From Closterium sp. NIES-65 (Eukaryota > Streptophyta > Zygnematophyceae > Desmidiales > Closteriaceae): 64,000 nt of DNA. Below are positions 253 through 45,155 of this stretch, in pieces. The stretch is from NCBI GenBank assembly GCA_948144175.1, contig CANXME010002057.1:2094001-2158000 (forward strand). Direction: 5' to 3'. The number at the start of each line of letters is the position of its first letter. The first letter of the stretch is position 1. Made by a program: the position numbers and the translations under genes. A model generated the notes under the pieces. The model was given only the letters and a program-made list of their open reading frames with translations, had not been told where the DNA came from and did no database searches.

Positions 253-3200
253 ACCCTCGGCAAGGATGTAGTGGTGGACCTCGTGTGCTACAGGCGACAT
301 GGGCACAATGGGCAGGTGAGAATCTCTTCCCTAGAGTGCACTTGCGATGCCAGCAATGGGTGCGTGCAAGCATGGGAGCATGTGTGTGGGTGGAGGCGCA
401 GACGGCAAGGATGTAGGGGTGGACCTCGTGTGCTACAGGCGACATGGGCACAACAAGCAGGTGGGCATGCTAGCTAGACTGCACGTGTTGGCATTTCAGC
501 GTGCGAGTATGTGAGCATACACATGAGCAACGCAGGTGCTATGCTGCACTGCACATAACATATACGCACACACGTATGCGCTCCTTTTGAGACGTCTCAA
601 AAGACGCTGCACTGCACATAACATATACGCACACACGTATGCGCTCCTTTTGAGACGTCTCAAAAGACGCTGCACTGCACATAACATATACGCACACACG
701 TATGCGCGCACGCATGCACACAAGCACGCGCCGTTCCTGACAAGGCAGCATCGATCGATGCAGGGCGCCCAATCCGCTCCCTATCTCTTACCCCCTGTCC
801 GTCCTACTCCCTCCTTCCCACCACAGGACGTATCCGCTGATGTACTCTCATATGCACACCAATATAATCTGATTCTTCCCCCCTCCTCCCAACCGCCCCC
901 TTCTTCTCTTTACAGGACGACCCACGAGTGACACAACCCCTGATGTACGCTCTGGTGGACCGTGGACGCCCACCCTTCCATTCGCAAACATGTGCACACC
1001 AATATAAACTTATTCCTCCCCACTCCTCCCAACCGGCCCGTGTTCCTCTTTACAGGACGACCCACGAGTGACACAGCCCCTGATGTACTCTCTAGTAGAC
1101 TCCCACCCGCCATGCCTTCAGCTGTATGCCTCGCGGCTCATGGCAGAGGAGGTGGTTACAGCGGAGGTGAGTGAAGAAGCGTTGTGCCATTCACATGAGC
1201 CACGTGTCGTGCCTATCTGTAACTCCACTGTTGGCGGTTACAGCAGATGTGAGTGCTGCACTGCTGGTTACAGCAGATGTGAGTGCTGCACTGCTGGTAC
1301 ACGCCCACCTTCCATGCCTTCAGCTCCACGCCGCACGGTTCATGGCAGAGGAGGTGGTTACAGCGGAGGTGAGTGCAAGGAGTGTGTGTTGTGCCTTTCA
1401 CACCAGTCACATGCCACGTGTCCTGCCTGCAACTGTGCTGTATGGACGGGGTCACAGAAGAGGGGAGTTTGATGGGGTTTCTACGATGTGCATGAGGTGA
1501 GGTGATTGTTGATGTGATTGGTGACAGTGGATGGGAGCGGCGGTGTGTCGACACGGGTGCTTCAGGGTTGCACATAAATTGGAATGGGTTGTTCTCGCAC
1601 ACACCATAGCATGTGCACAAGTGGGCATGCACGTCCATACATATGCATGTCGATGCACACACATCCAGACGATGCATCTGCGCACACCACATGCTGCATC
1701 TCCTCCATCCATCCGCATCCCCCTCAGGAGATCGCCAGCTGGCAGGCTGACGTGGAGGCTGAGTTTGAGCGTGCGTTTGAGAACACCAGCAAGCAACAAG
1801 TGTCGCCACAGGATTGGCTTGCTGCCAACTGGCAAGGTACTGCCAACATTTCGTCTGTACAGCTTGCAATCGTTTCGACAGCTAGCATTAACATGCTGAG
1901 ATGGATGGAATGTTTGTGGAAACCCAGGCAGCTTGGTAAGGGAACAGAGCATGGCATGGCGTATATGTGTGCTCTCAGTCTGCCCCTGCCATGTAGCATC
2001 TCATGACTTGTCAATCTGATTCTCATGGCATGGCAGGGGAGGCGCTTGGATCGCTGGTGAGTCAGCGCAAGGTGCAGCCCACTGGCCTTCCCCTCAAGAC
2101 CTTGCAACGCGTGGTGAGGAACCGGGGAGATGGTTAAGGGAGGCCGAGATGGTGAGGTGGAAAGGACGGTGAGGGGAAGGATGGTGGAGGGGGAAGGGGG
2201 GAGGAAAACAGGGGGGAAGCGATGGCAAGGGAGAGGTGAACATGGAGAAGTTGGTATTGGGGGCTGCCTGGCGGATCAGGCGTTTTCTACGGTTTCACGT
2301 GCTCAATGCTGTTATGAGTCACGGCCTCACTTGTTCTCACGTGTCATGACCACACACGTTCCCATGTTGTACCGACCTCACGCGTTCCCTTCCCATCCCA
2401 CATGTTGCAGGGGGATGTGCTCTGCACTGTACCACCGGACTTCACCTTACACCCTCAGGTACTGTTCTGACCCTTGCTTCTGAAACCAGCTTGAAAGGTC
2501 ACACTTCACTTTCACTGTGTGCACATGCTGCATGCATGCATGGGTGCATTTGAGCTACTTATCGTGAGCGGTACGCACAACCAAACAACCATAAGCAACA
2601 CAACAATAAGCAACACAACCATAAGCAACACAACCATAAGCAACACAACCATGAGCAACACAACCATAAGCAACACAACCATGAGCAACACAACCATAAG
2701 CAACGCAGAGCAACCCTCCAATATCCAGCAGCATCATTCATTGCTCACACAGCAGTGTTAATCATCCACACAACACCACTCATGTTTCCCTTCAGAATGC
2801 ACCCAGAGCGTATGTACGGTCATGCCTCCTCTTATACCAAGATCATCCCTTGCTATTTGCCGTCATCCTTTTTGGGCGATTGCCGCAAGATCACAACCAC
2901 TGACTGATCCCCTCCTCCCTCCCTGTCCCATGCTTCCTCCGTGTCCCTTTCTTCCTTGCTCCTCCCTTGCCTCCTTCCGCTTTTCTCTCCTCCCTTCTCA
3001 TCCGTGCTTCCCTCTGTTTCTCGCCCTCATCCCACCTGGTGCACCTGTCACGTAGCTCACTGCAGGAGGATAGCAACTGATTTCTTCCTCCCTCTTCCTC
3101 CTTGCTTACCCCATACCCCGCCCTTCTCTCTTTTCTCATCCTCCTCATCCGCTGCTTCCCCGCTCTCCGTTACTCACTTTGCTCGAACCCCCACGGGTGC

Positions 3201-6200
3201 ACTGCCAGCCAGGTGGTATCGCTGCTGAAGAACCTCTTTTTAGTCGACTCAAGACACGCTCTCCCTTCTCACCCTGCTCGAAACCGACCCCCCCCCCCCC
3301 CCCCCTCCTCTCCTTCCTGCGCCCCGGGTGCACTGCCAGGTGGCATTGCTGCTGGAGAATCGCCGCAAAATGATGGCAACTGGGGAAGGCATCGACTGGG
3401 CCATGGCAGAGGCTCTTGCCTTCGGGTACGCTTGTGTGTCACTGTTGAGAGATTCCGAGGCTGGGAAAGGCATTGACTGGGAAAGAAGTTGACTGGGGAA
3501 GGCATAGACTGGGAAAGACGTTAACTGGGGAAGGCATAGACTGGGCCATGGCAGAGGCTCTTGCCTTCAGGTACGCTTGTGTGTCTCTGTTGAGACATTT
3601 CGAAACTGTTGAAGGCATAGGCTGGGCCGGGGAAGGCTTTGGCTGGGAAGGCATTGACTGGGAAACGCATAGGCTGGGGAAGGCAGAGGCTGGGGAAGGC
3701 AGAGGCTGGGGAATCCGTGTCGCCTCCACAGCCCCACCTCTTCTATTCCTCCCGCCGCCCGTGCTCTTTTCAGTCCCACCTCCCTGCTTAGATTCTTTAA
3801 CATCTGCCTGATTCAATCCCCTTGCAGCAACCCAGCACATTTCCTACTCCGATCCCATTGCCCCCACCCCACCCTCCCACCCACCCAACCACCCATCCAC
3901 TCCCGCCCCCCTTCCAGCTCGCTTCTTCTGCCATTCGACCCCGTCGCTGAACCAGACGGCAGACAGCAACCCCACCCATGCTTCCTTTTCCCATCCCAAT
4001 TCCATCCGCCCTTCTTGCCCTCTCCTCTCCCCCCCATCCAGCTCGCTTCTTCTGCCGTTTGACCCGTCTCTGAACCAGACGGCAGACAGCAACCCCACCC
4101 ATGCGGTGCGGCTGAGCGGGCAGGACTGTGAGCGCGGCACCTTCAACCACCGCCATGCCGTCATGCATGAACAGACCACGGGGCAACGGTGAGTGTGATG
4201 TGATGACATGACATGCATGCTCTTGTATGTGCGCACAGACTCCCGGCGGGGCACCTTCAACCACCGCCATGCTGCCATGCATGAACAGACCACGGGGCAA
4301 CGGTGAGTGTGATGTGATGACATGACATGCATGCTCTTGTATGTGCGCACAGACTCCCGGCGGGGCACCTTCAACCACCGCCATGCTGCCATGCATGAAC
4401 AGACCACGGGGCAACGGTGAGTGTGATGTGATGACATGACATGCATGCTCTTGTATGTGCGCACAGACTCCCGGCGGGGCACCTTCAACCACCGCCATGC
4501 TGCCATGCATGACCAGACCACGGGGCAACGGTGAGTGGGATATGATGTGTTGTGATGTGATGTGATGTGATGTGATGTGATGTGATGTGATGTGATGTGA
4601 TGTGATGTGATGTGATGTGATGTGATGTGATGTGATGTGATGTGATGTGATGTGGTGTGATGTGATGTGATGTGATGTGATGTGATGTGGTGTGATGTGA
4701 TGTGATGTGATGTGATGTGATGTGGTGTGGTGCACCATCTTACATGTGCACATGCACTCATGGGGCACCTTCAACCACCGCCACGCCGTCATGCACGACC
4801 AGACCACGAGGCATTGGTGAGTTGGGGGAAGCAGTGAGTGTGATGTGATGTGATGTGATGTGATGACATGACATGCATCATGCTCCTGTCTTTTATGCAC
4901 GCATACACTCACGGGGCACCTTCAGCCACTGCCATGCAGTCATGCACGACCACCAGGCCACAGGGCAGCAGTGAGTTGGGGGAGGCGGTGAGCTGGATAC
5001 GACGCATGCTCTTATATGCCCGCACACACTCCTGGGCACCTTCAGTTCAACCACCGCCGTGCCGTCATGCATGACCAGGCCACGAGGCAGCGGTGAGTTT
5101 GATGTTGTCTAGGGTTGTGGGGCCATATTCGCAAAAATGCTAGCGTCTAGTCTTTATATCATACCATACACAATTGTTCAGAGCTGCTACTTCACACTAG
5201 TACTCCCTCCCTACCATACGACCCCAACACACTCGCGTGCTTTACCACAAGTACACCTCGCTGCAGCACGTGGCAGCAGGGCAGGAGCAGCTCATGGTGT
5301 CCGCGTAACTCGAACCTGTTGGTGGCACCCGTATCCCCCCACATGCAATGCAACCCCAGCCATTCTGTTTGCTTCCCTGCAGGTACACCTCGCTGCAGTG
5401 TGTTTCAGCAGGGCAGGAGCGGGTCATGGCGTCCGCGTAACTCGAGCCTGTCGGAAGCAGCAGTGCTGGGCTTTCTGGTTGCCTTGGTGGCAACCGTATC
5501 CCCCCACATGCAATGCAACCCCAACCATTCTGTGTGCTTTCTCGCAGGCACACTCCGCTGCAGCAGCACGTGGCAGAGGGGCAGGAGCGGTTCATGGTGT
5601 GCAATTCAAGGCTGTCGGAGGCTGCTGTTCTGCCCTCACAGTGCGCTACTCCCTCCCTCCCACCCCATGCAATACGGCCCACATGTGAATCATGATCCGC
5701 TGCAGATACACCCCTCTGCAGCACGTGGCTGCAGGACAGGAGCGATTCATGGTGTGCAACTCGAGCCTGTCAGAGGCAGCAGTGCTGGGCTTCGAGTACG
5801 GCTTCAGTCTGGAGAACGAAAATGCCCTTGTGTGCTGGGAGGCGCAGGTGACTTGGGAAGGTGAATGGTGTGTGTGCCACGCTGAGTTGGGCTTTGAGTA
5901 CAGCCACTGGTGTGGTGTGCTGGTGTGCCGTGCAGTGCTGGGCTTTGAGTATGGCTTCAGCCTGGAGAACGAAAACGCCCCGGTCTGCTGGGAGGCGCAG
6001 GTGAGGTGAGAGTTAGATGGACTGCTCTCGTGCACTGGGTCTCGAATGCAGGTTAGTCTGGAAAATTAGAATACCCTCGTCTGCTGGGAGGCTCAGGTGG
6101 TTTAGGAGGCCGCTCGTGTGCCGTACAGTGTAGGCATGTGCTTTGTGCTGTGCCTGCCTGCAAGGCTCGTGTTCTCGTGTAACCTCATCTGCTCGGAGGC

Positions 6201-9200
6201 CCAGGTGGGCTATAACACTCCATTCTTCCTTTGCCCCTCTCTGTATCCTACCCCTCTCTTTTTTGCCCCAATCAGATTGCCCTCGCCTCTCCCTCTCTTC
6301 TCTCTCCTCCCACTGCCTCTCTCTCTCCCCCCGCCCCGGTCAGTTTGGGGACTTTGCGAACAACGCGCAGGCGATAATAGACAACTTCATAGTGAGCGGG
6401 GAGGACAAGTGGATGACCCCCACGGGCCTTGTGCTGCTGCTGCCGCACGGCTTTGACGGCCAGGGCCCCGAACACTCCTCCGCCCGCCTCGAGAGGTACC
6501 TTCAGGTGGGTTGCTATTGGGGAGCTTGAGAGGTACCTGCAGGTGGGTTGCTATTGGGGAGCTTGAGAGGTACCTGCAGGTGGGTTGCTATTGGGGAGCT
6601 TGAGAGGTACCTGCAGGTGGGTTGCTATTGGGGAGCTTGAGAGGTACCTGCAGGTGGGTTGCTATTGGGGAGCTTGAGAGGTACCTGCAGGTGGGTTGCT
6701 ATTGAGGGCGTGAGAGGTACCTTCAGGTGGGTGGTCTTGGGGGGCCTGAGAGGTACCTGCAGGTGGGTGGGTCTGTCTATTAACTGCCAAAAAAGCTACT
6801 GATTTCTCGCTGCTGCTGCCGCACGGCTTTGACGGCCAGGGCCCCGAACACTCCTCCGTCCGCCTCGAGAGGTACCTGCAGGTGGGTGGTCTTGGGGGGG
6901 CTGAGAGGTACCTGCAGGTGGGTGGTCTTGGGGGGCCTGAGAGGTACCTGCAGGTTGTTGTTCAGGTTGTCCTTCAGTTGATCCCTCAGGTTTTCTGATT
7001 TTATTTGATTTCAAATGGCCATGGCACGCCACTCAATCCGCGTCTGTCTGCCCTCCGTGACAGCTCGGCTAGACACCTTCCATCCCTTCGCCTACTGCCA
7101 CCCCACTTTTCCATTCATTTCCTCCTCCCCTCCGCTCCCCCAACACTCTCCGTCCTCTGTTTCCCCACCTCCGTCCCATTTCTTCCCCTCCCTCTTTCCC
7201 ATTCCCTCCCCTCCCTCTTTCCCATTCCCTCCCCTCCCTCTTTCCCATTCCCTGCCCTCCCCCATTCGCTTCCCTTACCTCTCTGCTGCCCCATTCCTTC
7301 CCCTTCACCTATCTTCACCAGGAAGCAGCTGGTGAACGACAATGCCGACCACCTTCCCGGCTACAGTCCACACTTGGCCGCTTTTGAGTCGACTCAAATG
7401 TCCCTACCTCCTTTTTCTTCCGCTCCCCAATTCCTTCCCCTTCACCAATCTCCAAGCAGCTGGTGAACGACGATGCCGACCACCTTCCCGGCTACAGTCC
7501 GCACCTGGCCGCCCAGATTGAGGCGGGGTTCACCATAGCCGACCGCGGTGAGTGGGCGGGCGGCGGTGGGCTGGGTGGCAACAGTGCTTGGATGACGTGT
7601 CGATGGGCGTGAATCAACAGAAATGGAAAAATAGTTCTCCGGCTGAAACAGCTTGAGGGGTATGCATAGAAGAACGCAGAGCATGGGAAGAGCAAGTGCA
7701 TGCAGATTGGGAATTTGGTGAAGATGGCAGTTGATGCGGAGTGGGCAGTTGATGTGGAGAGGGCAGTTGATGCGGAGAGGGCAGTTGATGCGGAGAGGGC
7801 AGTTGATGCGGAGAGGGCAGTTGATGCGGAGAGGGCAGTTGATGCGGAGAGGGCAGTTGATGCGGAGAGGGCAGTTGATGCGGAGAGGGCAGTTGATGCG
7901 GAGAGGGCAGTTGATGCGGAGAGAGCAGTTGATGCGGAGAGGGCAGTTGATGCGGAGAGGGCAGTTGATGCGGAGAGGGCAGTTGATGCGGAGAGGGCAG
8001 TTGATGCGGAGAGGGCAGTTGATGCGGAGAGGGCAGTTGATGCGGAGAGGGCAGTTGATGCGGAGAGGGCAGTTGATGCGGAGAGGGCAGTTGATGTGGA
8101 GAGGGCAGTTGATGCGGAGAGGGCAGTTGATGCGGAGAGAGCAGTTGATGCGGAGAAGGCAGTTGATGCGGAGAGGGCAGTTGATGCGGAGAGGGCAGTT
8201 GATGCGGAGAGGTCAGTTGATGCAGAGAGGGCAGTTGATGCGGAGAGGGCAGTTGATGCGGAGAGGGCAGTTGATGCGGAGAGGGCAGTTGATGCGGAGA
8301 GGGCAGTTGATGCGGAGAGGGCAGTCGATGCGGAGAGGGCAGTTGATGCGGAGCAGGCAGTTGATGCGGAGAGGGCAGTTGATGCGGAGAGGGCAGTTGA
8401 TGTGGAGAGGGCAGTTGATGCGGAGCGGGCAGTTGATGCGGAGAGGGCAGTTGAGGAGGAGCGGGTACTAGAAGGACTGTTGGTGATGACGTCTCTTTTT
8501 TCAACCCTGCCAACCCTAATCCATGGCAGACAACAAAGGCCACGTGTCGCTCTCTGATTTGCTGGAGTTCATGCAGTCGCAGTACGGGCTGGGCCACGAC
8601 TACGTGACGGCGCTTGCCCACCAGATGCACATCGACGAATCAAATCAAATCTCCAAGTGAGCCAACAAATTGGTGAAGGAGCTACCACATGCATCCATAC
8701 ATGTAGCTCGTGTAATCATTTCTGTGGTATCAACTCTGGGTCAGTGGGAGGCATTCATGGTGTGTACGTAACATGCCGACATACATGCATACATACATCC
8801 GGCATGTGTGGTCACATCACGTGTGTGCCTCCAGGGCGGACTGAGAGGCATTCGTGGTGCTTTGGTTGCAGCAACGTACGCTCCGCTGTGATAATAGGTG
8901 TCTTACTCAGATCCATGCATGCATCATACATATGCCATGTGCTTTGTGTGTCCTGCCAGGGCGGACTGGGAGTCATTCATGGTGAGGTGGATGAGGCGCA
9001 ATGCACAGAGGGACAACAACGTGTGTGTCGTCAACCTCACCACGCCCGCCAATTACTTCCACGCCCTCCGCCGCCAGGTGCCCTCTCCGCCGCCAGGTGC
9101 CCTCTCCGCCGTCAGGTGCCCTCTCTGCTGTCAGGTGCCCTCTGCTGTCAGGTGCCCTCTCTCTGCTGTCAGGTGCCCTCTCTGCTTTCAGGTGCCCTCT

Positions 9201-18468: not shown

Positions 18469-19296
18469 CTGGTAAGGAAAATATGTTAGCATATATTCTG
18501 TTTACCTTCATTATATTCAGCTCTTAATAATGTTGGTGATTATTTTGATCTATACCTAGCAGCACAAAGCTTAGACTTCTATACGTCAGCGCTACACTCT
18601 GAATGGAACATGTTTGATCAATCTCGAGATTGGCGCGAGCTCATGTGGTTGGCTCGTGCGACTCCTCCTGGCGGACCCAGCGGTCTGCCTGCTGTACAAG
18701 AAATGCTGTGGCCGCTACACCACCACGAAACTACTGTAGCTCCGTGCCTTTCATGTCTCCTCACCTCACCAACATCCTTGTTGCTCAAAATTCACTTCAT
18801 TCGGTAAGGGGAGGTTGCAGAGGATTTCTCTGCATTCGATAACGTTTCAAACGGGTTTTGTGAGAAGCAAATTCCAAGGGCACCAGGTTGGTTTGTTGTA
18901 GGCATCGTGGCTGGTCCGTCTTGAGCAATATGCACGGCAAGGTGGTTGTTGGATTCGTTCCCTTCACCTCACGATGTGCATATTCTGCATTCCGTGAAAT
19001 CACTTGTTTCGCTTCAGATTTAGGGTTTGGTCGCCTAGTACGGACAATCTCTTTTAATTCAGGTGCGATCCGAGGCATTTTCGGGCAGGCTTTGCCGTTT
19101 CGAGAGCAGCGACAAGACAAATCCCCGCGCCAGATCTACTGCGGGGATTTCGGAACAGTCCCTACTTTATCAAAGTCCACGCGAATTCCCTTTCTCCATA
19201 TTAGAATCTTATCGTGTTTCTTACTTTTAGGCTCATCCTCTATTGAAAGCTTGCACATGCTCTGTATTTCTCCCTAGCTCGCACAAGCACTTCTCA
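18469..19296. other. Intergenic stretch: 3' UTR of the dehydrogenase and upstream region of the ataxin-2-like gene
   Basis: 828 bp between two plus-strand genes. It is less GC-rich than the exons, and short AT-rich stretches just after the stop (18480-18560) suit a 3' UTR. I see no convincing TATA box or other named element; short open frames here have no recognisable motif. Confidence 0.6.
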
Positions 19297-25200: not shown

Positions 25201-28200
25201 CGTGCGCTTGTGGGCATGATTGAAAATGTATTCGACCTTGTTATTCCCTTTTTTTGTTGGTGACAACAGTTCTCTAACAAAAAAACGTGGTTTTTTTGGA
25301 AAATTACCGTAAAAAACGGACCGTTTTTTACAAAAACCGTATTTTTGAACCTTGCATCCATGCACCCATCCATGCACCCATCCATGCACCCATCCATGCA
25401 CCCATCCATGCACCCATCCATGCACCTATCCATGCGCCCATGCGCCCACGGTCCACCCACACCACGTATGCCCATGTTATCACCCATGCCTTCATGTACC
25501 CGAGCGCTGATCTGGACAGCGGAATGGATGATGAGGTGAATGATGCATTCAACACCCTTACCAACAACCAGCACCAACCATATCACCCATACCTCCCGTC
25601 CCGTACCACCCACCCATGCACTCATGCCCTGCAGCGCTGATCTGGACAGTGGAATGGACGACGAGGTGGATGATGCACCCTTGCACTCTTACCATACCAC
25701 ACCATCCGTACCACCCACCCATGCACTCATGCCCTGCAGCGCTGATCTGGACAGCGGAATGGACGACGAGGTGGATGATGCCAACGATGAGACCTTCGGT
25801 GATGCCGCCCCCACCACCGTGCATGGCACTGTACGTCATTTGGGGGTGGGGGTGGGGCGAAGGGAGAGGCAGGTGAGGGAGAGAAAGGGTGGGTGAATGT
25901 GGGCAGCAATTGACGAGTTGGATGATGCCATGCCGACCATGAGACCTTCGGTGATGCCGCCCCCACCACCATGCATGGCACTGTAAGTTACTTGGGGGTG
26001 GGCCGAGGGGGAGAAGGAGGTGGGGGAGAGAAGGGTTGGGGTAGAAGTGGTGTTCGTGCGTACGCCCCCCACGGGCCATGCCATCCTGGTGGGGGGGAGT
26101 GGGGGACAGATGTGGTGCTGCCGGTGGTGGGGAATTGAGTGAATGTGTGGTTGGTGAATGTGGGGTTGGTGAATGTGAAATTCGTGGTTGCAACACATTT
26201 GGCGGTTGATAGGCGTAGGTCAAGGAAGATGCCATATGACACATGTGCCTCACCCTCTGCCCCACATGTGACACATGAAGAGTTGAATTGGCTTTCTCCT
26301 TTTCTCTTCTCTCATCCCTGCTGCTGCTCAATTCAACTCTTCATGTTCCTCTCCTCGCTGCGTCTCTATGCAAATTCTCCTTGCGTGTTGCTATCCCCAG
26401 GCGCCCCCCTTGCTGCCTACTCCAGGTGTCTCATCTGAATCCGCTGCCAAAAGCGCTCCAGGCGAAAGCCAGAAACAGACAGAAGTTGCCGCCCCAGAAG
26501 CTGCAGGCGAGGGCGAGAAACGGACGAAATCTGCCGCCCAAACGACTGCGGGTGGCAGCAGTGACGAGACGGAGAGGGGAGAGAAGGTGAAGCAGGGGAG
26601 TAGTGGAACCGAGGAAAAGGAGGAGGAAGGGACAAAGGGAGCAGCAGAGCGCGGGAAAGGGGAGAGGAAGGAGGGCGAGAAAGACGGAAAGGAAGGGAAG
26701 AAAGGGAAGGAAGGGAAGGAGGCGAGGGAGGGGAAGGCGGCAGTGGGGGCATCACGGTCATCATCAGCATCATCCACATCGTCTGCCAGTGGTGCCAGTG
26801 GCGCCAGCGGTGCTCTCTCCGCCTCTGACCTGCCCTCCATCCCCTCGCACCCGCGCCTGCGCATGCACCCCCGCCGCCTCGTGAAGGTATGGGAACTGGA
26901 GACTGGAGATTGAGGGCTGGGGGCTGGGGGCTGGGAAACGGGAATGGGGACTGGAGAAGTGGGAAGAGGAAGTGAGAATTGTGCTCTCTCTGCCTCTCTC
27001 GAGGATTGTGCTCTCTCTGCCTCCGACCAGCCCGTTCCACGTGCATGTGGGACCCACACGTTCTCTCTCCTCCTCCCCATGTTTTCCCCACTCCCCCCCC
27101 CCCCCAACCCCTCCCCCAGGCGGCATCAGGAGGGCTGTTCCAGGTGCATGGCACTGGCAGCCCATCCCGTCGCTCGCCTCTCATGTCGCCACTGCTCTCC
27201 TCCTCCCCCTGTTCCCCCCTCCCCCCTCCTTCAAACCCACCCCCCCCCCCAACCCCTCCCCCAGGCGGCATCAGGAGGGCTGTTCCAGGTGCACGGCACT
27301 GGCAGTCCGTCCCGTCGCTCGCCCCTCATGTCACCGCTGCTAACAGACGCCCCCGCCAACCTGCAGGCGCTCAACCTCGACCAGAGCGTGCCTCACTTAT
27401 CCGATGATGTGTACCGGTAGGTGGGGAGGGGTGGGGAGTGGTGGGGGTGTCGGGTGATGCCTGAAGCATGACCCCGCCAACCTGCAGACGCTCAGCCTCG
27501 ACCAGAGCGTGCCGCACGTCTCAGATGATGTATACCGGTGGGGGGGAGAGACAGGCGTGGTGTGGTGTGGGTCATGGGGCTGGGTGGGCAGGGTTCGTAA
27601 GAGTTGGGTGCGAAAGGGAGTGTGGGAGGGAGGGATGATAAGGATCAATCAGAGCATGGTCCTGCCAACCAACCTGCTGCTGCCAACCAACCTGCTGCTG
27701 CCAACCAACCTGCTGCTGCCAACCAACCTGCTGCTGCCAACCAACCTGCTGCTGCCAACCAACCTGCTGCTGCCAACCAACCTGCTGCTGCCAACCAACC
27801 TGCTGCTGCCAACCAACCTGCTGCTGCCAACCAACCTGCTGCTGCCAACCAACCTGCTGCTGCCAACCAACGTGCTGCTGCCAACCAACCTGCTGCTGCC
27901 AACCAACGTGCTGCTGCCAACCAACGTGCTGCTGCCAACCAACGTGCTGCTGCCAACCAACGTGCTGCTGCCAACCAACGTGCTGCTGCCAACCAACGTG
28001 CTGCTGCCAACCAACGTGCTGCTGCCAACCAACGTGCTGCTGCCAACCAACGTGCTGCTGCCAACCAACGTGCTGCTGCCAACCAACGTGCTGCTGCCAA
28101 CCAACGTGCTGCTGCCAACCAACGTGCTGCTGCCAACCAACGTGCTGCTGCCAACCAACGTGCTGCTGCCAACCAACGTGCTGCTGCCAACCAACGTGCT

Positions 28201-31200
28201 GCTGCCAACCAACGTGCTGCTGCCAACCAACGTGCTGCTGCCAACCAACGTGCTGCAGGCCCTTCCTTACAAGCTGAGTGTCGCGCCGCTTCCTTTCCCC
28301 CTCCGCCTCCTCCTCACAGCGAGTTCCAGGAGTTCAAGCAGAGGAGCCGGCGCATGCGTGAGGGGGCAACGTTCTAGGGAACAAAGCAAAGTCCCCAACT
28401 CACCCCTCCCTGTCACCGCCCCTCACCTCACTCCACCCCTCAACCCTGCCCCCCTCCTTCCAGCGAGTTCCAGGAGTTCAAGCAGAGGAGCCGGCGCATG
28501 CGCGACGAGGCGGAGGGGGTGCGCTCGTGCAGTGACCTGCTGGGCAAGGTGCGCGGTGTGTGCAAGGTTGGAGTTGGGGGGGGGTGTGCAAGGTTGGAGT
28601 GTGGGGGAGGGGGGTGTGCAAGGTTGGAGTGTGGGGGTGGGGGGTGTGCTGGAGGGACCGGGAAAGAAGGCATGCTGGGGGACCTGCAGAGAGAGGATGC
28701 GCTTTTGCCCATCCTGCCCATCCTGCCCATCCTCTCTGGGCAGAAGGGGTGGGTGTGTGCCCCAATTCTTGACCTGTTGGGCAAGGTGGAGCGGGAGGAG
28801 AGGGGAGAGGTGGGAAGAGGGAGGTTTTTATGGTGTGGGACAGGGCACACGCGATATGGTGTGATGAACTGGAGTTTAGTGAGCCACGCTGGTCTAGAGC
28901 TAGTGTTTTCGAGCTAGTTCTGTTCTTTTATCTAGTGTGCTTTGAGCTGCTGTGCAGTTCTGTAAGGCAGTGCTGTGTGGTGCTGTGAGATTCTGTGGAG
29001 GGCTGTGAGATGCTGTGGGGTGCTGTGAGATGCTGTTGGTACCGTGAATAATTGCTGTGCAGCACATTTATCATGTGCAGATGATCCTTGTGTTGATCCT
29101 GCCACCTCCAAGCCTCTTCCGTCTCTGCTACACTCACATTAACTGCTTCTTTTTATTCTTCCCTCTCTCTGTGTGTCCCCCACCCCACTCACTCTGCATA
29201 CCTGCCTCTGGCTGCTGCTCCTGCTGGATCACTGGCTGGCCAATCCTTGTCTGATTCTGATGGGAATGGCGGCCATATCTCTTCAGCAATTCGATTCGCG
29301 TTCACCTGTCTCTTCGTGTGAGTCTCGTTTGACTCTTGTGCCCAGCCACCTCATCAAATGCTCCTGCTCGCTCTACCTTCGACACCTACACGCAGCCACC
29401 CTCCCATCTCCTCCCTGTCTCCTATCCCCTCCCTCCTCTTTTGTCCCCACCAACCATACAATACCTCCTCGCCCCTCCTGCCTCCTTGCCTCTGCTGCCT
29501 CATAACCTCTACTCCGTCCCTCCTCCTGCCCTTCCCCTCCCCTCCTGCAGGTCGCTCCTCTGGTCGCAACACGCCCACCTACCTAGAGAGCTCCCACTCC
29601 TCCCCGGACCTGAAGCCCTTCCTAGCATCTGCAGCTTCAGCACTCCTCTGCTCCTCCTCCTCCGCAGCTGTCTCCTCCGCTGCCGCTCCTGCCACGTCAT
29701 ACCGCTCCCCGTCGCCGTCCAACCTGGCGCGCTCGAACTCGCATTCCGTGGACGCTCCTGCCACGTCAGCGCTGGCTGCCACCTCAGCAGCCAGAGCTCT
29801 GGCACCGAAGCCAGCTTCTGGCGAAGCATCAGCAACAGCAGCAACGGCGCCAGGCGAACAGGAAAAGAGCACAGGGAAGGCAGCAGATGGTGGTGTGGGA
29901 GCAGGAGGAGGAGGTGAAGGTGGTGAAACAGCAGCAGACTTGCCGAGTGGTGGTACTGGTGGAGTTGGGGCAGCAGCAGGAACGGCAGGGAAGGTGGCAG
30001 AGGGTGTGGAAGGAGCAGCAGGCAGCAGCAATGCTCCTGCTGCTACTGCAAGTGGTGCTCCTGCTGCTACTGCAAGTGGTGCTCCTGCTGCTACTGCAAG
30101 TGGTGCTCCTGCTGCTACTGCAAGTGGTGCTCCTGCTGCTACTGCAAGTGGTGCTCCTGCTGCTGTGAAGAAATCCACCCTCAATCCAAACGCCAAGGTC
30201 TGTATTGACCTTCCTCTCTTTCTCGCATGCTCTCGTCTCACCTTCTCTCTTTCTCCCTGGCTCTCTCCCCTCCCTTACCGTTGGAAGCTCCTTCTCTAGT
30301 CCGGTCATCCCTCTCTCCACCCAGCTCCCAACGTTCTCTTTTTCCTTTCTCTCATATTTTCCCAATTCCCCACACATCTGCGCACACACACACCCGTGCA
30401 CAGTTTGGCCCATGCACATACTTGCTCATTTACAGAACAGCCCACGCATGCGCACACACACACCTTGTCAGATCAGGCCATCTGCGTTTGCCTTTCAAAC
30501 CCCCTCTCACTTCCCTTCCCTTCCTCCTCGCTCCCTCCCCCCAGGAGTTCAAGTCCAACGCTAAGGTCTCCACACCCACCTTCGCCATACCCGCCTCCCT
30601 TTCACCCCCCTATCGCACTCTCTCAACCGCTTCCTATTCCATCTTCTTCCCTTCCCCCACCACTTCCCCCTCTCCCCTCCCCGTCCCTCCCCCCTCCTCA
30701 GGAGTTCAAGTCCAACGTCAAGGTCTTCACACCCACCTTCGCCATTTTGAGCTGACTGAAATGACCCCCCCCCCTCCTCCCCATCCCTCCCCACCCCTCC
30801 CCACTCCTACCCCCTTCCCCTCCCAGGAGTTCAAGTTCAACCCCAACGCTAAGGTCTTCACACCCACCTTCTCCATACCCGCCTCCCCATCCCCCCCTAT
30901 CACACTCACTCACCCGCTTCCTATCCCATCTTTTCCCATCCCTTCCCCCTCGCCCCTCCCCGTCCCCCCAGGAGTTCAAGTTCAACCCCAATGCCAAGGT
31001 CTTCACACCCACCTTCGCCATGCCCGCCGCTGCTCCTCCCCCTCTCCCCCCGCCCTTCATTCCCGCCTACCCCTCCGCCCTCCCCCCTCAGCCCCGCCCA
31101 GACCACCCCTTCCCCTTTCAACCCCTCCCTGGCGCACCCCCCTCCGCCCCTGGCGCCCCCATCCCCTTCCCCGCCCCTATCTACCTCCCCACCCCTCTCC

Positions 31201-34200
31201 CTCCCCCCTCCCCCGCCCTGTCTTCCCCCATCCCCCCTGCCAACGCCACTGGCGCCCCCACCCCTCCTGCTTCCGCGCTCCCACTCCCCCTACCCTCCCC
31301 CGGGTCCGTTCCCCCTGTGGGGCAAGCAGGGGCGGCAGGGCTTATACCTATCCCTGTTTCGTTGCCAGGTGGCATGCCGCCATTGGCTGTGGCGCCCCAG
31401 CCTATGTACATGCCGCCCCAGCAGCAGCAACAGCAGCAGCAGGCGTTGTTCTCTCAGCAAGGATTCACAGGAGGGGGTAGTGGGGGGAAGGAAGGGGGAA
31501 CGCAAGGGGAAGGCGGGAGTGATGGTGGGGAGTTTGGGGGGAGTGGAGTGGGGGGGGGAATGCAGGGGCAAGGTGACGGGCAGGGTGCAGGGACAGCAGC
31601 AGGACAAGTGCAGAACCAGAACCAAAATCAGAATCAAATCCAAAATCAGAATCAAAACCAAAATCAGAATCAGAATCAGAATTATAATCATCACTACCAG
31701 CAGCAGCAGCAGCAGCAGCAGCTGCTGCAACATCAGGCACACCAGCCAAGGTCAGGGCACCAGCGGCGGCAGCGGCACCATCAGCAGGACAAGCAGCAAA
31801 GGCATCGACAGGGAGATGGCGGGGAGTACAGTCAGCAGCAGCACCAGCAGCAGCAGCAGCAGCAACTGCAGCAACAGCAACAACAGCAGCAAGTGCATTA
31901 TGGGCAACAACAGCAGCAGCAGCAACAGCAGGGGCAGCAGCAGGGAGAGCAGGGGGATGGAAGCTTCTCTGATCAAAATGACATGAACAAGTGGCAGCCG
32001 CAGCAGCAGGTTTGTCATCCTAATCTCACCTATGGTAAAAGGCGTAGCCAGCACCACTTCAACTTTCCCGTGTCTCATTGTTTTCGTTCTCCGTTTTTTT
32101 TTCTTCTTCTTCTTCTTCCCTCACTTGTTGGAGTAAGCCTAGCCTTTGTTCAATCATTGCTTCTTTCCTTGCATCCGCCCTCCCTTGCTTCTCCACTGCC
32201 CCCTCTGCCCCCTCTCCCTCCCACCAGCCATCAGCAGCTTTCATGCCCATGCCACCCCAGGGCATGCCGCCACAAGGCATGCCAGGCCAAGGCATGCCAC
32301 CCCAAGGGATGCTGCCGCCTGGAATGCCGCCCGGCATGCCCCCTCCCATGCGCCCCTACCTCCCTGCACCGCACGGCGCCGGCCAGCCCATGCCTGGAGG
32401 CGGCATGGCGGGCGGCATGGGCAGCATGCCAATGATGTTCAGCCCGCAGGGGTTTCCCCAGCCCATGATGTATGGGCAGCACGGGCAGCTCATGTACATG
32501 CCCATGCCCCAGGTCCGTCCTCTCCCTGTCCTGGCTTTCTCATGTGTAATATGCCCTGTTGCTGTCTTTTCCCCTGTTGCTGTTGGTGTTGTTTGTTTCT
32601 CGTGAAGCGTGGCATATATTAGAAGCTTGATATCTGCAATGCTAGGAGTAGGAGGCATGGAAGGTAGGCAGCAAGAGAAAAGGTAGGGGTACAAAGTATA
32701 GAGTAGCTTGGAGTGAAGCCTCAATAATGCTCAGTTAGAGTGTTTCACCATCGCTTACCCATGTTTCTCGTGCTGCCCACCCCAGATGATGCCTGCTCCC
32801 ATGATGGTGCCCTCGCAGCAGCAACAGGACCAGTCACAGCAACAGCAACAGCAGCAGCAGCAGCAGCAGCAGCAAGAGGGCTCACAGCAAGCAAGCACTG
32901 ACCAGCAACAAGGGCAACAGCAGCAAGACGCAGGGCAGCAGCCGCAACAACAGCAGCAACAACAACAGCAGGCTCCACAGCAGGGAGCACCATTGACGGG
33001 AATGGCAGCACAGCAGAAAGGTCCGCCTCAAATGTACCCCATGGGGATGCCCCGAGGTGAGATTGGTGTGGGTAGTTGTTGAGAATTCTCATAAAAAAGC
33101 ACCTGCAACAGAATGGGCAGCACAGCAGAAAGGTCCGCCTCAAATGTACCCCATGGGGCTGCCCCGAGGTGAGATTGGTGTGGGTAGTTGTTGAGAATTC
33201 TCATAAAAAAGCACCTGCAACAGAATGGGCAGCACAGCAGAAAGGTCCCCCTCAAATGTACCCCATGGGGATGCCCCGAGGTGAGCTTGCGAGTGTAGCT
33301 GGCTGTAGCACCCTATTGAAGCTGCATCCATGCAGCTGTATCTTCTCCCCGCCTTTTCCTATTAATATTTCAACTCTCGCTCGCCTCAACACTCCTCTCG
33401 CTCGCCTCAACACTCCTCTCGCTCGCCTCAACACTCCTCTCGCTCGCCTCAACACTCCTCTCTCTCACCTCAACACTCCTCTCGCTCCCCTCAACACTCC
33501 TCTCGCTCTCCTCAATACTCCTCTCGCTCGCCTCAACACTCCTCTCGCTCGCCTCAACACTCCTCTCTCTCGCCTCAACACTCCTCTCTCTCACCTCAAC
33601 ACTCCTCTCTCTCGCCTCAACACTCCTCTCGCTCGCCTCAACACTCCTCTCGCTCGCCTCTACGCTCCTCTCTCTCGACTCAACACTCCTCTCTCTCGCC
33701 TCAACACTCCTCTCTCTCACCTCAACACTCCTCTCTCTCACCTCAACACTCCTCTCTCTCACCTTGAACACTATGTTGGAAAAAACGCTCGGGCTTCTAC
33801 GCGTATCACGTTTATACGAGAACGTATATACGGAAAAACGTGATACGTTCCGTAATCCGCGATACGTTTCGTCGGGCAGCCTGAAAAAAAAAGAGAAAAA
33901 AACTGTTGCCGCTGATTCCGCGATCTGCAATTCTGTGAAACCTAATTTTGAGATTCGAAACTCGAATGCCCCCCTCCCCTCCCCTCCACCGCACATCACC
34001 TCACACCACCTCCCAAACCCAACCTTCCCTTACGAGCTGCTCGCACGTCGGCGTGAGTACAACAGCGAATCTAATTTGGCTCACGCCAAGTTTACTGCTA
34101 TTGCTAGCAGCGGCGTCGCGTCACTTGCATTGCAGATCTTAGCAACCGCAATACTAGGACGATTCTAGCCAACAATTTCGTACTGGCGTAAACCCCACGG

Positions 34201-35334
34201 GAGTTATCCGCATCAAGTATTGCTTAAATTCTTTCCCTGTAAGCATTCTACGTCAACCGAAATGTTTTTCCCCTGCCCTAGAGATTTTTAACCTGCCCGA
34301 CGCACCGTATTTCGAGGTTTTTTGTACGCTGGAAAATTGCGTATCACGTATGTACGATACCGTATAGTTCGTATGCGTTCCGTACGCCATACGCGTATTT
34401 TCCAACATAGCTTTAACACTCCTCTCTCTCACCTCAACACTCCTCTCTCTCACCTCAACACTCCTCTCTCTCACCTCAACACTCCTCTCTCTCACCTCAA
34501 CACTCCTCTCTCTCACCTCAACACTCCTCTCTCTCGCCTCAACACTCCTCTATCGCTCTTACTTCTCTCTTTCCTCCAGTTGCCCTTCGCCATTCCTTCG
34601 TGTGGTAGCATCCCTGGTGCACGAATCTGTCTTGAAATTCTTACCAATACCAAAAAATCAGTGTGAATCATGGTACTCGCACTGTTATAAGGCACAATGA
34701 TGCAATGTGACACGGCTCAATTGGTGTGACGTAAGACCAATCTGATGTAAGCTCAATCCGAGGCCCCTCGGCCCTGCCTTCATGTTTCACCTCAACCATC
34801 TGCCCCCTTTCCAATCTTCTCTTCCACTCGCTCCCTGCCTCCCTCTCATACTCATCTACCCACTCTCCCCTTTCCTCCTCAGGCCTCACTTCCCCACCAA
34901 AATATTATTGTCAGAAGTGAAACCCACCATCTGTTCCTGTTTTGAATTCTCAGAAGACCAAAGTCTAATCTCCAATGTGAACCCCACCATACTCGTTGTC
35001 TTGTGTATTCTCCCACCCCGCTTTCCCACCAGGCCCTGTGATGCTACCTCCCCCACACTTCTTCCACCGCCCGCCAAAGGTTCTATTTCTTAGGCACGCC
35101 TAAAAACTCATTCCGCATCCTCACCCCGCACCCCTCCTCTTCTACATCCCACTCCCCCTCCCCCAACAAGGCCCTGTGATGCTGCCGCCCCCACACTTCT
35201 TCCACCGCCCACCCATGGTTCCCATGCACGGCATGCCGCCCGGCCACATGCCCATGCCGCCCCACCTGGGATCATCACCCCCGGTCATGAGCAACAGCCC
35301 CCAGCCGCCTGCCGCCATGCCGCCTGCCCGCTGA
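19297..35334 (+). CDS. Ataxin-2 / CID3-CID4-like RNA-binding protein (15 coding exons)
   Basis: Predicted exons: 19297-19999, 22673-22818, 23189-23412, 24057-24228, 24639-24820, 25740-25830, 26401-26886, 27265-27416, 28464-28548, 29287-29317, 29551-30197, 30972-32009, 32228-32512, 32786-33056, 35171-35334. All phases agree, giving 1558 codons plus stop. Domains: Gly/Pro-rich N-terminus; ataxin SM-like domain about residues 205-290 ([20 protein letters not shown], then VVLRMARLV); LsmAD about 358-470 ([37 protein letters not shown]); PAM2 about 966-989; then Pro-rich, poly-Gln and Met/Pro-rich regions. Ataxin-2 proteins bind poly(A)-binding protein through PAM2 and act in mRNA stability, translation and stress granules in the cytoplasm. 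ATG 19297 was chosen because it opens the long first exon; an in-frame non-ATG extension exists upstream. The second intron would use a GC donor. Confidence 0.92.
20291..21080. mobile_element. Non-autonomous hAT-type MITE (790 bp)
   Basis: Perfect 12-bp terminal inverted repeats TAGGCATGAGCA / TGCTCATGCCTA are flanked by a perfect 8-bp direct duplication ATCATATG (20283-20290 and 21081-21088). An 8-bp duplication and the TAGG start are typical of Ac/Tip-like hAT elements. Subterminal regions are packed with GGGTCGGG / CCCGACCC motifs, as expected for transposase binding. The interior (about 20786-20920) has repeated GAAATCGCC...CGCAGA words. No transposase is present, so it would depend on an autonomous relative elsewhere. 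Confidence 0.92.
21137..22220. mobile_element. Foldback element with long imperfect inverted repeats
   Basis: The left arm begins GAGGTTTGCGACAACCTATC and the right arm ends with the complement of nearly the same sequence. Matching blocks run inwards to a centre near 21790-21805; the inner 100 bp or so are nearly perfect around GGTGATAGTGAGTGACATTG. About 200 bp in the left arm (21188-21395) has no partner on the right. No coding capacity is seen. Whether it is a foldback transposon, a MITE or a local palindromic duplication cannot be settled, because I could not identify a clear target duplication. Confidence 0.75.
22506..22541 (+). repeat. Acceptor-side copy of the VVLRMARLV exon
   Basis: AGCTGTGGTGCTCAGGATGG and following bases repeat the start of the exon at 22673-22818, with an upstream CAG. 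Confidence 0.75.
23520..23582 (+). repeat. Donor-side copy of the [10 protein letters not shown] exon end
   Basis: Repeats the last 55 or so bases of the exon at 23189-23412, reading [12 protein letters not shown], and its GTGGGA donor. Confidence 0.8.
23745..23990 (+). repeat. Two acceptor-side copies of the LsmAD exon start
   Basis: Copies begin after CAG at 23745 and 23902 and repeat the [16 protein letters not shown] segment of the exon at 24057-24228. The first carries a 4-bp insertion that shifts its frame. The second stays in frame into [17 protein letters not shown]. Neither has the rest of the exon, so 24057-24228 is taken as the functional one. Confidence 0.82.
24483..24590 (+). 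repeat. Acceptor-side copy of the ERGFHLR exon
   Basis: Copy of the first 100 or so bases of the exon at 24639-24820 (GAGCGAGGCTTTCATCTGCG...), 156 bp upstream of it. Confidence 0.8.
24829..25075. repeat. 25-bp minisatellite, about 9-10 copies
   Basis: Units of AGAGGGTCCAGTGTGTATTG plus CCGAG start 10 bp after the donor at 24821. The 25-bp length rotates through frames, so all plus frames are open. Confidence 0.92.
25095..25200. repeat. Second 25-bp minisatellite, about 4.5 copies
   Basis: Units of GCATGAAGAGGACGAACCCC plus TCCTT, unrelated to the preceding array but of the same length. Confidence 0.9.
25352..25445. repeat. 12-bp minisatellite (about 7-8 copies)
   Basis: CATGCACCCATC repeats in the same intron, preceded by an A/T-homopolymer-rich stretch with several short inverted pairs (25240-25345). 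Confidence 0.88.
25510..25983 (+). repeat. Copy cluster around the [11 protein letters not shown] exon
   Basis: Two acceptor-side copies (about 25510-25553 and 25633-25677) precede the exon at 25740-25830. One donor-side copy (about 25909-25982, ending CATGGCACT|GTAAGT) follows. Each upstream copy reads [13 protein letters not shown] before diverging into intron. Confidence 0.85.
27121..27540 (+). repeat. Copies flanking the [14 protein letters not shown] exon
   Basis: An acceptor-side copy (27124-27205, same first 27 codons) lies upstream of exon 27265-27416. A donor-side copy (about 27468-27538, [23 protein letters not shown] then a GT-rich donor) lies downstream. The copies are in frame and conservative, so alternative use is possible. 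Confidence 0.85.
27655..28256. repeat. 18-bp minisatellite, about 33 copies
   Basis: Units of CTGCTGCCAACCAACCTG; after about 12 units the C/G variant CAACGTG takes over almost completely. The unit resembles the CCGCCAACCTGCAG found in the preceding exon and its copy, so it may derive from them. It is open in several frames on both strands, including LLPTN.LLPTN and NQPAAA; read here as intronic. Confidence 0.92.
28318..28790 (+). repeat. Copies flanking the [13 protein letters not shown] exon
   Basis: An acceptor-side copy (28320-28368) precedes the exon at 28464-28548 with 48 identical bases. A short donor-side copy (LLGKV, about 28766-28787) follows. Between them is a small array of GTGTGCAAGGTTGGAGTGTG-type units (about 28555-28650) starting at the donor. 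Confidence 0.8.
29287..29317 (+). CDS. 31-nt mini-exon of the ataxin-2-like gene ([10 protein letters not shown])
   Basis: Needed to change phase between the exon ending at 28548 (phase 0) and the exon starting at 29551 (two bases completing a codon). CTCTTCAG precedes it and GTGAGT follows. The peptide [10 protein letters not shown] fits the Ser/Arg-rich linker before PAM2 in plant relatives. Confidence 0.55.
30024..30170 (+). repeat. Coding 24-bp repeat (APAATASG)
   Basis: Six tandem units inside the exon 29551-30197 encode APAATASG, a low-complexity Ala-rich linker just before the PAM2 motif. Unlike the intronic arrays it is in frame within a supported exon. Confidence 0.85.
30545..30990 (+). 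repeat. Four tandem acceptor-bearing copies of the PAM2 exon start
   Basis: GAGTTCAAG...AACGCTAAGGTC.. segments follow CAG at 30545, 30702, 30827 and 30972, reading [51 protein letters not shown] and [19 protein letters not shown]. Only the last continues into the long open exon. The copies become steadily more like the last one from left to right. Confidence 0.88.
33106..33291 (+). repeat. Two donor-side copies of the [12 protein letters not shown] exon end
   Basis: 120-bp period copies of the last 65 or so bases of the exon 32786-33056, each ending CCCCGAG|GTGAG. Copies are almost identical to the exon. Confidence 0.88.
33372..34560. repeat. 21-bp minisatellite split by an inverted-repeat element
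   Basis: CCTCAACACTCCTCTCGCTC plus one base repeats about 19 times (33372-33770) and resumes for about 6 units (34415-34555). The CTCTCTCTCACC variant dominates at the junction on both sides, so the element inserted into an existing array. Confidence 0.9.
33771..34410. mobile_element. 640-bp MITE-like element with TIRs
   Basis: Terminal inverted repeats CTATGTTGGAAAA / TTTTCCAACATAG. Flanks CTTGAACAC and CTTTAACAC suggest an imperfect 8-9-bp target duplication, compatible with a Mutator-like or hAT-like MITE. Subterminal parts repeat CGTATCACGT / ACGTGATACG words in both orientations. No coding capacity is seen. Confidence 0.75.
35040..35090 (+). repeat. Acceptor-side copy of the last exon start
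   Basis: GCCCTGTGATGCTACCTCCC and following bases repeat the start of exon 35171-35334, preceded by CACCAG. Confidence 0.8.
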
Positions 35335-43786: not shown

Positions 43787-44062
43787 GGCGACGACAGCGA
43801 CGCAGTGCAAGCAGCAGGGAAAGAGCTCGCAGTGGCAGTGGAACTGTGCTCACCAGGGAGGGCATGTCGAGTAGGTATGCAGAAAGGCGGCTCAGCGACC
43901 TGGCGGCTGGGGTGCTGGGCGGCTCGGGCGCAGGGCGGCTCGGCTCCCGGGCGGCTCGGCTCCCGGGCGACTCGGCTCCCGGGCGGCTCGGCGGCTGGGC
44001 GGCTCGGGTGCAGGGCGGCTCTGCTCCCGGGCGGCTCGGCGGCAGGGCGGCTCGGGTCCCGG

Positions 44063-44202: not shown

Positions 44203-45155
44203 GGGTCCTACCTTAGGACCGTTTTTTTAGGGCCCACCGAAGCGCGCCCCGAGGCGCGCCTTTTTTTTAGCGACCCCCTCGGGTCGCCTTTTCCCTCGCG
44301 GCCCCGCTGTCCCTCAGACGCGGCCCCGCCACCTCTCCTGATCGCGGCCCCGCCGCCTGTTTGACGCGGCCTCGCCGCCTACACTGACGCGGCCCCGCCG
44401 CCTCCCCTGATGCGGCCCTGCCGCCTCCCCTGACGCGGCTCCCCCGCCTCCCCTGACGCGGCACCGCCGCCTCCCCTGACGCGGCTCCCCCGCCTCCCCT
44501 GACGCGGCCCTGCCGCCTCCCCTGACGCGGCCCTGCCGCCTCTCCTGCCGGCCCGCCACTGCACCTGCCGGCCTGCCGCTGCACCTGCCGGCCCGCCACT
44601 GCACCCTACGGCCCGCCGCTGCACCTGCCGGCCCGCCACTGCACCTGCCGGCCTCGCCGCTGCGCCTGCCGGCCTCGCTGCTGCACCTGCCGGCCCGCCG
44701 CTGCACCCTACGGCCCGCCACTGCACCCTACGGCCCGTCGCTGCACCTGCCGGCCCGCCACTGCACCTGCCGGCCCGCCTCTGCACCTGCCGGCCCGCCA
44801 CTGCACCGGTCAACCCGCCGCTGCACCTGACGGCCCCACCCCTGCATCTCCTGGCCGAGCCGCCTCAGCAGCCGAACCGCCCGTGAGCCGAGCCGCCCGA
44901 CGCCGAGCCGCCCGGGACCCGAGCCGCCCTGCCGCCGAGCCGCCCGGGAGCCGAGCCGCCCTGCACCCGAGCCGCCCAGCCGCCGAGCAGCCCGGGAGCC
45001 GAGCCGCCCTGCGCCCGAGCCGCCCAGCAGCCGAGCCGCCCAGCACCCGAGCCGCCTTTCTGCATACCTACACGACCTACCCTGCCTGGTGAGCACAGTC
45101 CCACTGACACTGCGAGCTCTTTCCCTGCTGCTAGCACTGCGTCGCTGTCGTCGCC
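44203..45155 (+). repeat. Repetitive GC-rich leader of the inner Copia element
   Basis: Three successive families of short tandem units lie between the LTR and gag: GCGGCCCCGCCGCCTCCCCT-type (about 44285-44540), TGCACCTGCCGGCCCGCC-type (about 44540-44830) and GAGCCGCCC-type (about 44870-45060). A poly-T run and an AGGGCCCACCGAAGCGCGCC stretch precede them. The same blocks in reverse make up the outer element's leader (51400-52162 plus 43880-44062). Confidence 0.85.

Follow-up and report, generated by a model that had tools for sequence, protein, structure and literature searches.

Partial copies of exon borders in Closterium introns as probable remnants of short tandem duplications

Genes of the window and their exon-border copies

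The window, by which we mean the whole 64,000-nt stretch of Closterium sp. NIES-65 DNA analysed (C1759:2094001-2158000, within an 874-Mb assembly of 2,400 contigs), contains an OGDH/DHTKD1-like dehydrogenase gene and an ataxin-2-like gene, both with introns carrying partial copies of adjacent exon ends (Table 1). Copies of the 5' end of an exon with its acceptor are hereafter called head copies, and those of its 3' end with its donor, tail copies. The example singled out in the initial annotation (an acceptor fragment at 3918, an exon at 4042-4188 and donors at 4302, 4416 and 4530) was accurate to within 1-2 nt: the head copy occupies 3906-3981, the exon 4042-4189, and the tail copies start at 4246 with a period of 114.

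Table 1. Exons, border copies and palindromes mapped in the window (positions are those of the window unless a contig is given).
Feature	Position	Strand	Remarks
Complete copy (acceptor, 63 nt, donor) of exon C1759:2093713-2093775	253..315	+	reads GHNGQ, exon GHNEQ
Second, frame-broken copy of exon C1759:2093713-2093775	about 402-461	+	
63-nt direct repeats with palindrome CTTTTGAGACGTCTCAAAAG	584..666	.	
OGDH/DHTKD1-like exon	1056..1166	+	head copy 849-960, tail copy 1294-1428
OGDH/DHTKD1-like exon	3340..3430	+	head copy 3191-3232 ends beside palindrome (~3237-3254); tail copy 3523-3707
Head copy of exon 4042-4189	3906..3981	+	acceptor and first 64 aligned nt, offset -124
OGDH/DHTKD1-like exon	4042..4189	+	5' end placed by eye
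Tail copies with donor, exon 4042-4189	4246..4547	+	period 114; second gene copy longer by two units (228 nt)
Head-copy ladder, exon 5706-5847	5252..5632	+	
OGDH/DHTKD1-like exon	5706..5847	+	
Tail copies, exon 5706-5847	5932..6107	+	
OGDH/DHTKD1-like exon	6344..6505	+	downstream, 37-nt array with donor (6491-6768), then a larger tail copy (6809-6955)
Head copy of exon 7454-7546	7282..7381	+	ends at palindrome TTTTGAGTCGACTCAAA (~7382-7399); next unit holds the working exon
OGDH/DHTKD1-like exon	7454..7546	+	read by eye
OGDH/DHTKD1-like exon	8960..9077	+	head copy 8780-8859; followed by donor-containing 19-nt array split by Copia element
OGDH/DHTKD1-like exon	17734..17880	+	tail copy 17964-18082
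Ataxin-2-like exon	24058..24228	+	head copies 23742-23829 and in 23723-23952
Ataxin-2-like exon	25740..25831	+	head copies within 25481-25676, tail copy 25912-26040
Ataxin-2-like exon	27265..27418	+	head copy 27065-27196, tail copy 27472-27572
Head copies of ataxin-2-like exon 30972-32010	30511..30971	+	palindrome-like site at 30746
112-nt donor-spanning units, ataxin-2-like exon 32786-33056	33000..33289	+	GAGAATTCTC palindrome between units
Head copy of last ataxin-2-like exon 35171-35334	35011..35083	+	
Palindromes of the window	584-666, 3237-3254, 7382-7399, 15953-15970, about 30746 and 33078		

Exon maps were produced with a purpose-written spliced protein-to-DNA aligner, with E. coli proteins as references. 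The sample comprised eight loci of one genome, totalling 118 exons and 110 introns after curation: the window OGDH/DHTKD1-like gene (ogdW, 21 exons, corrected by eye), a paralogous OGDH on C2059 (ogdC, 14 exons), gcvP, two GOGAT loci (glt1, glt2), two aconitase loci (acn1, acn2) and carB. The ataxin-2-like gene was added as a hand-read gene, with exon ends accurate to 1-2 nt. OGDH was chosen as the gene in the window, and GcvP, GOGAT, CarB, aconitase and ValS as mappable by E. coli proteins; the references clpB, ppc, glgP, alaS and dnaK lay outside the searched sample. The choice was not blind, in that match lists with repeated fragments were known beforehand and the aconitase loci were picked as known to be rich. 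The window dehydrogenase was mapped with E. coli SucA, with several exon ends placed by eye; it is too diverged from its paralog for exons to be found by DNA comparison. Predicted exons gcvP 16-17, glt1 22-25 and 31, glt2 11, acn1 7 and acn2 14 were removed by curation, and exons less than 60 nt apart were merged. Every exon, with 250 nt of flank, was then compared with its own neighbourhood.

Copies were found for 60 of the 118 exons (36/91 when the two aconitase loci are left aside), with head copies upstream of 46/110 acceptors and tail copies downstream of 41/110 donors (43 and 41 with a stricter definition of the border). The number of copy-bearing exons per locus was 12/21 (ogdW), 9/14 (ogdC), 6/13 (gcvP), 4/23 (glt1), 0/10 (glt2), 12/14 (acn1), 12/13 (acn2) and 5/10 (carB). 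The initial annotation had reported copies at nearly every exon of the two window genes; the copies are real, but the fraction is lower, at 57-71% in these two genes and 60/118 over the eight loci. Its figure of at least 10/17 exons for the dehydrogenase becomes 12 of 21 mapped exons, five of which lie upstream of the window (8/16 inside it), and that of at least 10/15 for the ataxin-2-like gene becomes 10/14 exons with border copies. The process extends beyond the window genes, as had been proposed, with seven of the eight mapped loci affected and hints in the ValS match list, which contains partial repeats of the same sort, with residues 540-578, for example, lying a short way upstream of 535-621. 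The absence of head and tail copies from all 10 exons of the GOGAT locus glt2 (C1653:113001-128000) counts against the explanation that we favour below. The exons of glt2 include some of 888, 1199 and 1443 nt.

The rule that acceptor fragments lie upstream and donor fragments downstream was obeyed in all 158 head and tail rows from the eight genes (79/79 head rows and 79/79 tail rows), in full agreement with the initial annotation, and its reading of the duplicated unit as spanning one exon-intron border is also supported. This count leaves aside 16 exon-interior rows (on both sides), 17 minus-strand rows (11 from one exon), 14 whole-exon rows and a single downstream head row, in which the copy overlaps another exon. 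Thirteen of the whole-exon rows come from one exon adjoining a satellite, and only two of these 13 are good exon matches (54/63 and 52/63). Whole-exon copies concern 2/118 exons, with lengths (63 and 57 nt) that are divisible by 3 and hence preserve the frame; two of the removed low-confidence exons (34 and 41 nt) also have them. The claim that no copy other than the in-phase one has both borders correct accordingly has exceptions, such as the complete, non-working copy at 253-315, the borders of which are intact. Among 52 non-satellite pairs with at least 80% identity, there were no exon-internal or whole-exon pairs. In the ataxin-2-like gene, 12 acceptor rows lie upstream and six donor rows downstream, one of the latter coming from the donorless last exon; one acceptor row lies downstream (139/211, in the C-rich part of exon 30972-32010). 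Rows left out for this gene comprise 96 interior plus-strand rows, nearly all from low-complexity exons, and 18 minus-strand rows.

The nearest head copy is offset by 113-196 nt in 41 of 46 borders (median 150) and the nearest tail copy by 54-292 nt (median 153). No nearest head unit is under 113 nt in length, whereas tail units may be as short as 54 nt, in addition to donor arrays with periods of 19-37 nt. Similarly, each of the 46 nearest head units includes at least 47 nt of intron, whereas the 41 tail units may include as little as 23 nt; a minimum for heads would fit the need for a branch point and a pyrimidine tract in the head unit. The splice signals are largely kept, with AG in 65/77 head copies and GT in 68/79 tail copies, so the decoy splice sites described in the initial annotation do exist as candidate sites. 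The end of the head copy and the start of the tail copy lie closer together within the exon than in permuted data (median gap of 23.5 versus 39 nt, p = 0.02), a closeness that is not required by the explanation favoured below and is counted against it.

Intron growth and codon-position divergence

Exon-derived sequence accounts for 19,158 of 59,454 intronic bases (0.32), from 2% in glt2 to 53% in acn1. Median intron length was 253, 439, 504 and 756 nt for introns with 0, 1, 2 and 3 copies, respectively, and introns gained 133-141 nt per copy. Near-identical gene duplicates (0.4-1.1% divergence) differ by whole units, which indicates that turnover is recent. A second gene copy, on another contig, aligns over the corresponding region at about 98-99% and differs in units. 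In the OGDH-like pair, the difference is 228 nt (2 x 114), alongside differences in ordinary satellites and a 309-nt insertion. Six interior indels of at least 30 nt separate acn1 from its duplicate acn1b (227, 155, 159, 328, 149 and 178 nt), each beginning, in the portion printed and as judged by eye, with exon-end sequence at a ladder position; two more lie at the extreme end of the alignment. The OGDH paralog pair has length differences of 318, 30 and 37 nt. Following PMC10407611, paired contigs are read as gene duplicates of a haploid rather than as the two haplotypes of a diploid.

Within an OGDH-like intron, a Copia-type LTR element (9248-14972), with LTRs that are 97% alike, interrupts the 19-nt array that carries the donor; this element shows 2.4% divergence between the two gene copies, versus 0.6% for the surrounding introns. 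Further downstream, at 37500-63700, large repeats of the window are inverted and shuffled relative to the second contig, and 40458-43789 and 45153-48469 match the same stretch of that contig in opposite orientations (about 73-74%).

The divergence of the copies from their own exons was analysed by codon position in strict frames for 74 of the 158 rows, the other 84 being ambiguous in frame. Divergence was 4.0% (156/3930) at positions 1 and 2 and 18.1% (354/1960) at position 3, and 14.8% in the aligned intron of all rows; for frames assigned by GC3, the corresponding values were 7.1% (positions 1 and 2) and 20.4% (position 3). The ratio of positions 1+2 to position 3 was 0.22 (bootstrap 0.18-0.27), and 0.25 (0.18-0.35) at borders with a single copy. 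Two working aconitase paralogs gave a ratio of 0.345, with position 3 saturated. The codon differences comprised 306 synonymous and 150 nonsynonymous changes, the latter including six stops. Base composition was considered as the source of the pattern and rejected (predicted r = 0.94).

A different picture emerged for comparisons between gene duplicates, in which copies changed at the intron rate (0.75% versus 0.64%) and the differences at codon positions 1, 2 and 3 numbered 22/13/21 in copies versus 5/1/21 in exons, with GC3-assigned frames included, and 10/4/7 versus 3/0/16 in the small sample of strict frames. In ladders with at least two copies, changes specific to a copy amounted to 6.6% in the intron part, 10.3% at position 3 and 4.4% at positions 1 and 2, a weaker pattern. 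The combination of coding-like divergence and an apparently neutral present implies that much of the divergence arose while both sequences were coding, the copies having lost their coding role afterwards. The simplest account of the codon pattern would be unequal exchange between working alleles that had diverged. PMC10407611 reports that another strain of the Closterium complex is of hybrid origin, with recombination among sequences from different sources. A diverged working source allele was not found, the only extra copy examined, on a third CarB contig, being 100% identical over 1 kb.

A palindrome family between direct repeats

Several direct repeats of the window enclose a short palindrome of the form TTTTGAG-NNNN-CTCAAAA, with a self-complementary centre. 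The pattern TTTTGAGNNNNCTCAAAA occurs exactly at 30,327 places genome-wide, versus four for the reversed pattern, and TTTGAGTCGACTCAAA-like sites number seven in the window, versus 0.13 expected. Within 206.7 kb, 14 of 15 exact TTTTGAGNNNNCTCAAAA cores have a self-complementary centre (TCGA, GCGC, ACGT or AATT), making them perfect palindromes, and a duplicated arm abuts all 15, versus 113/293 random nearby positions; for looser matches, the arm abuts 37/51. One palindrome is preceded and followed by the same 28 nt (100% identity), another has a 45-nt intronic copy of part of an OGDH exon on each side, and yet another lies between two 78-nt head copies of the following exon. Arms of 28, 35, 45, 65 and 78 nt are 89-100% identical, and others are longer and more diverged.

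A recognisable palindrome was present at 14 of the 158 border-copy junctions (3.6 expected; one for the reversed consensus), and a perfect palindrome of at least 14 nt at 3/26 junctions of duplications with at least 88% identity. Palindrome centres lay within 40 nt of a border-copy junction in 11 cases, versus 5.5 expected, in a weak test in which random draws reached 15; the comparison of arms and the count of 14/158, obtained with a relaxed score, are more informative. On present evidence, the counts of 14/158 and 3/26 imply that the palindrome does not explain most of the border copies; it may mark a minority of them, or most palindromes may have decayed. A more far-reaching reading would be that a hitherto undescribed insertion process leaves a perfect palindrome of 18-28 nt (TTTTGAG-NNN'N'-CTCAAAA) and duplicates tens to hundreds of target bases on each side. 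Insertions into exons would survive only if the duplicated target carried a splice border, so that the exon is split harmlessly and the displaced piece becomes intron; unequal exchange between diverged alleles would multiply the pieces, and introns would in large part be a fossil archive of the element. We regard this reading as doubtful.

Origin of the copies and related systems

The copies probably derive from short tandem duplications scattered through genes and filtered by selection. Tandem duplications, mostly with units of 110-250 nt, would arise throughout genes. A unit spanning an acceptor would generate the order intron-head / intron-head-rest, and one spanning a donor the order tail-intron / tail-intron. 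Either way, an intact exon with correct borders would be left, the extra copy would join the intron and the mRNA is predicted to be unchanged, whereas exon-internal units would break or lengthen the protein and be lost. The geometry of the borders, together with purifying selection, would thus be sufficient to place acceptor copies upstream and donor copies downstream, without targeting. The repeats might then mispair in recombination, leading to the gain or loss of units and to the growth of introns in steps of about 140 nt. Many of the displaced ends may stem from a chromosome whose working allele was a different one that had diverged long before, by unequal exchange within a recombining species complex, because the copies differ from the exon mostly at synonymous sites yet look neutral now. 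A subset of the founding duplications possibly arose along with the insertion of a palindrome of 18-28 nt, which stayed between the arms. Our confidence in this explanation is reduced by the non-blind choice of loci and by the looser match of the simulation described below.

Untargeted placement was examined by calculation and by forward simulation. Under random viable placement, 36% of units would lie across a border at present intron lengths, and 95% with introns of 150 nt. Simulations without targeting, in which ancestral introns of 150, 200 or 250 nt were grown to the present mean, yielded 105/220 borders hit, an exon-derived share of 0.30 and a purely intronic share of 0.10 for a 150-nt start; 96 borders, 0.22 and 0.20 for 200 nt; and 77 borders, 0.14 and 0.34 for 250 nt. 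The observed values are 87/220 borders and 0.32 exon-derived, with 8-11 purely intronic clusters, counted by hand (8-11% beside the 87 borders, 5-7% beside 156 copies). With ancestral introns of about 150 nt, the untargeted simulation comes close to what is observed. The simulation also yields about 245 border-plus-ladder events, versus the 156 copies detected, which counts against the favoured explanation. Copy-free introns, which may hide decayed copies, have a median length of 253 nt; given this length and the poorer fit of the 200-250-nt simulations, a two- to threefold border preference would be possible.

Such a preference would be expected if some feature of the junction (splicing-coupled breaks, R-loops or nucleosome edges) attracted duplications, as suggested by the bunching of unit sizes near 150 nt and by the border share of 17/23 among non-satellite pairs with at least 90% identity, uncorrected for age, versus 0.36 expected at present intron lengths. 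The initial annotation had called for a count of boundary-spanning against internal duplicates; on the eight loci, with recent pairs matched for intron identity, border pairs numbered 13, 8 and 5 and ladder-plus-pure pairs 13, 9 and 6 at 85, 90 and 93% identity with half-unit coverage, and 11, 7 and 4 versus 4, 4 and 2 with 80% coverage, three pairs at 85% being set aside as "other" (whole-exon or interior). The resulting border share of 0.45-0.73 exceeds the 0.36 expected under random viable placement significantly in only one of six settings. As the untargeted simulation comes close, given short ancestral introns, strong targeting is not required and a mild preference is possible; we judge border-targeted duplication to be improbable. 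The simple slippage or template switching proposed in the initial annotation, with a single template and a copy decaying from birth, fits the tandem arrangement, the present intron-like rate of the copies (0.75% versus 0.64%) and, taken alone, the copy-only changes in ladders (4.4% at positions 1 and 2 versus 6.6% in the intron). It is weakened by the ratio of 0.22 (0.18-0.27), where a value of at least about 0.5 would be expected for sequences non-coding from birth, by the ratio of 0.25 (0.18-0.35) at single-copy borders, and by a synonymous share of 67%, versus about 39% expected (by arithmetic from 24% synonymous among random changes), and we consider it unlikely. Coding-like divergence over the long term could also result from weak purification of the copies as gene-conversion donors to the adjacent exon, which they resemble and lie close to, with harmful changes removed; the flat distribution between gene duplicates (22/13/21, and 10/4/7 in the small strict-frame sample) argues against this, and it appears about as improbable as border targeting.

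If a whole copy of an exon had been inserted within that same exon, head and tail copies would be remnants of one event, which would explain why the end of the head and the start of the tail are frequently almost in contact (gaps of 3, 7, -1 and 9 nt; permutation p = 0.02). This idea was suggested by the first 11 exons and dropped as a general account when the long exons failed to fit (gaps of 140, 99, 92 and 169 nt); many exons, moreover, have copies on one side only, and we hold it to be very unlikely. Assembly artefact could be suspected from the round sizes of two contigs (5,150,000 and 845,000) and from a long-read assembly with many duplicated genes, as reported in PMC10407611, but the same regions are present on second contigs with about 1% divergence and differences of their own, making an artefact extremely improbable.

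The remnants of tandem duplication favoured here resemble several known systems. Tandem duplication supplying splice sites is alike, but the unit here also holds intron sequence and an existing border. In a single recent case, a new intron was reportedly created, whereas here about half of the examined exons are involved, existing introns are lengthened and a change in the mRNA is not predicted. A 2016 study, to judge by its title, concerned tandem duplications in a plant genome. Minisatellite or VNTR ladders are known to change by unequal crossing-over. The whole-unit differences in copy number between near-identical duplicates are of the same kind, but here exon ends form part of the units, whose divergence resembles that of coding sequence. 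Mutually exclusive or tandem exon duplication involves complete exons with both splice sites, and whole-exon copies concern only two of the 118 exons. Introner elements place similar intron sequence in many unrelated genes; the units described here each copy their own exon edge. MITEs and DNA transposons have terminal inverted repeats and a short target-site duplication of fixed length. The palindrome looks like joined terminal inverted repeats (14/15 cores), with direct repeats alongside, but has no interior, and its arms vary from 28 nt to more than 100 nt, unlike a fixed target-site duplication. A literature search, with subscription journals mostly outside its reach, retrieved no report of genome-wide exon-border copies.

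The lengthening of introns, and the survival of exons through local duplication, have usually been argued from single cases. The 87/220 borders in eight loci represent many independent events in one genome, some differing between near-identical gene copies, so that the size spectrum, the selection filter and the turnover become directly measurable. The copies also constitute a standing test of the ability of the spliceosome to ignore decoy sites a hundred-odd bases away. If they carry alleles of another lineage, the introns would be an archive of lost functional alleles, and the family of palindromes may represent a novel type of insertion.

As a minor observation on the assembly, the plastid rbcL is of the green type, with land-plant Rubiscos predominating among its best matches of solved structure. 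Twenty full-domain rbcL matches lie on plastid contigs C40, C75, C97, C162, C1848 and others, some of them as inverted pairs on one contig (about 200 bases apart on C40); these plastid contigs are probably chimeric.
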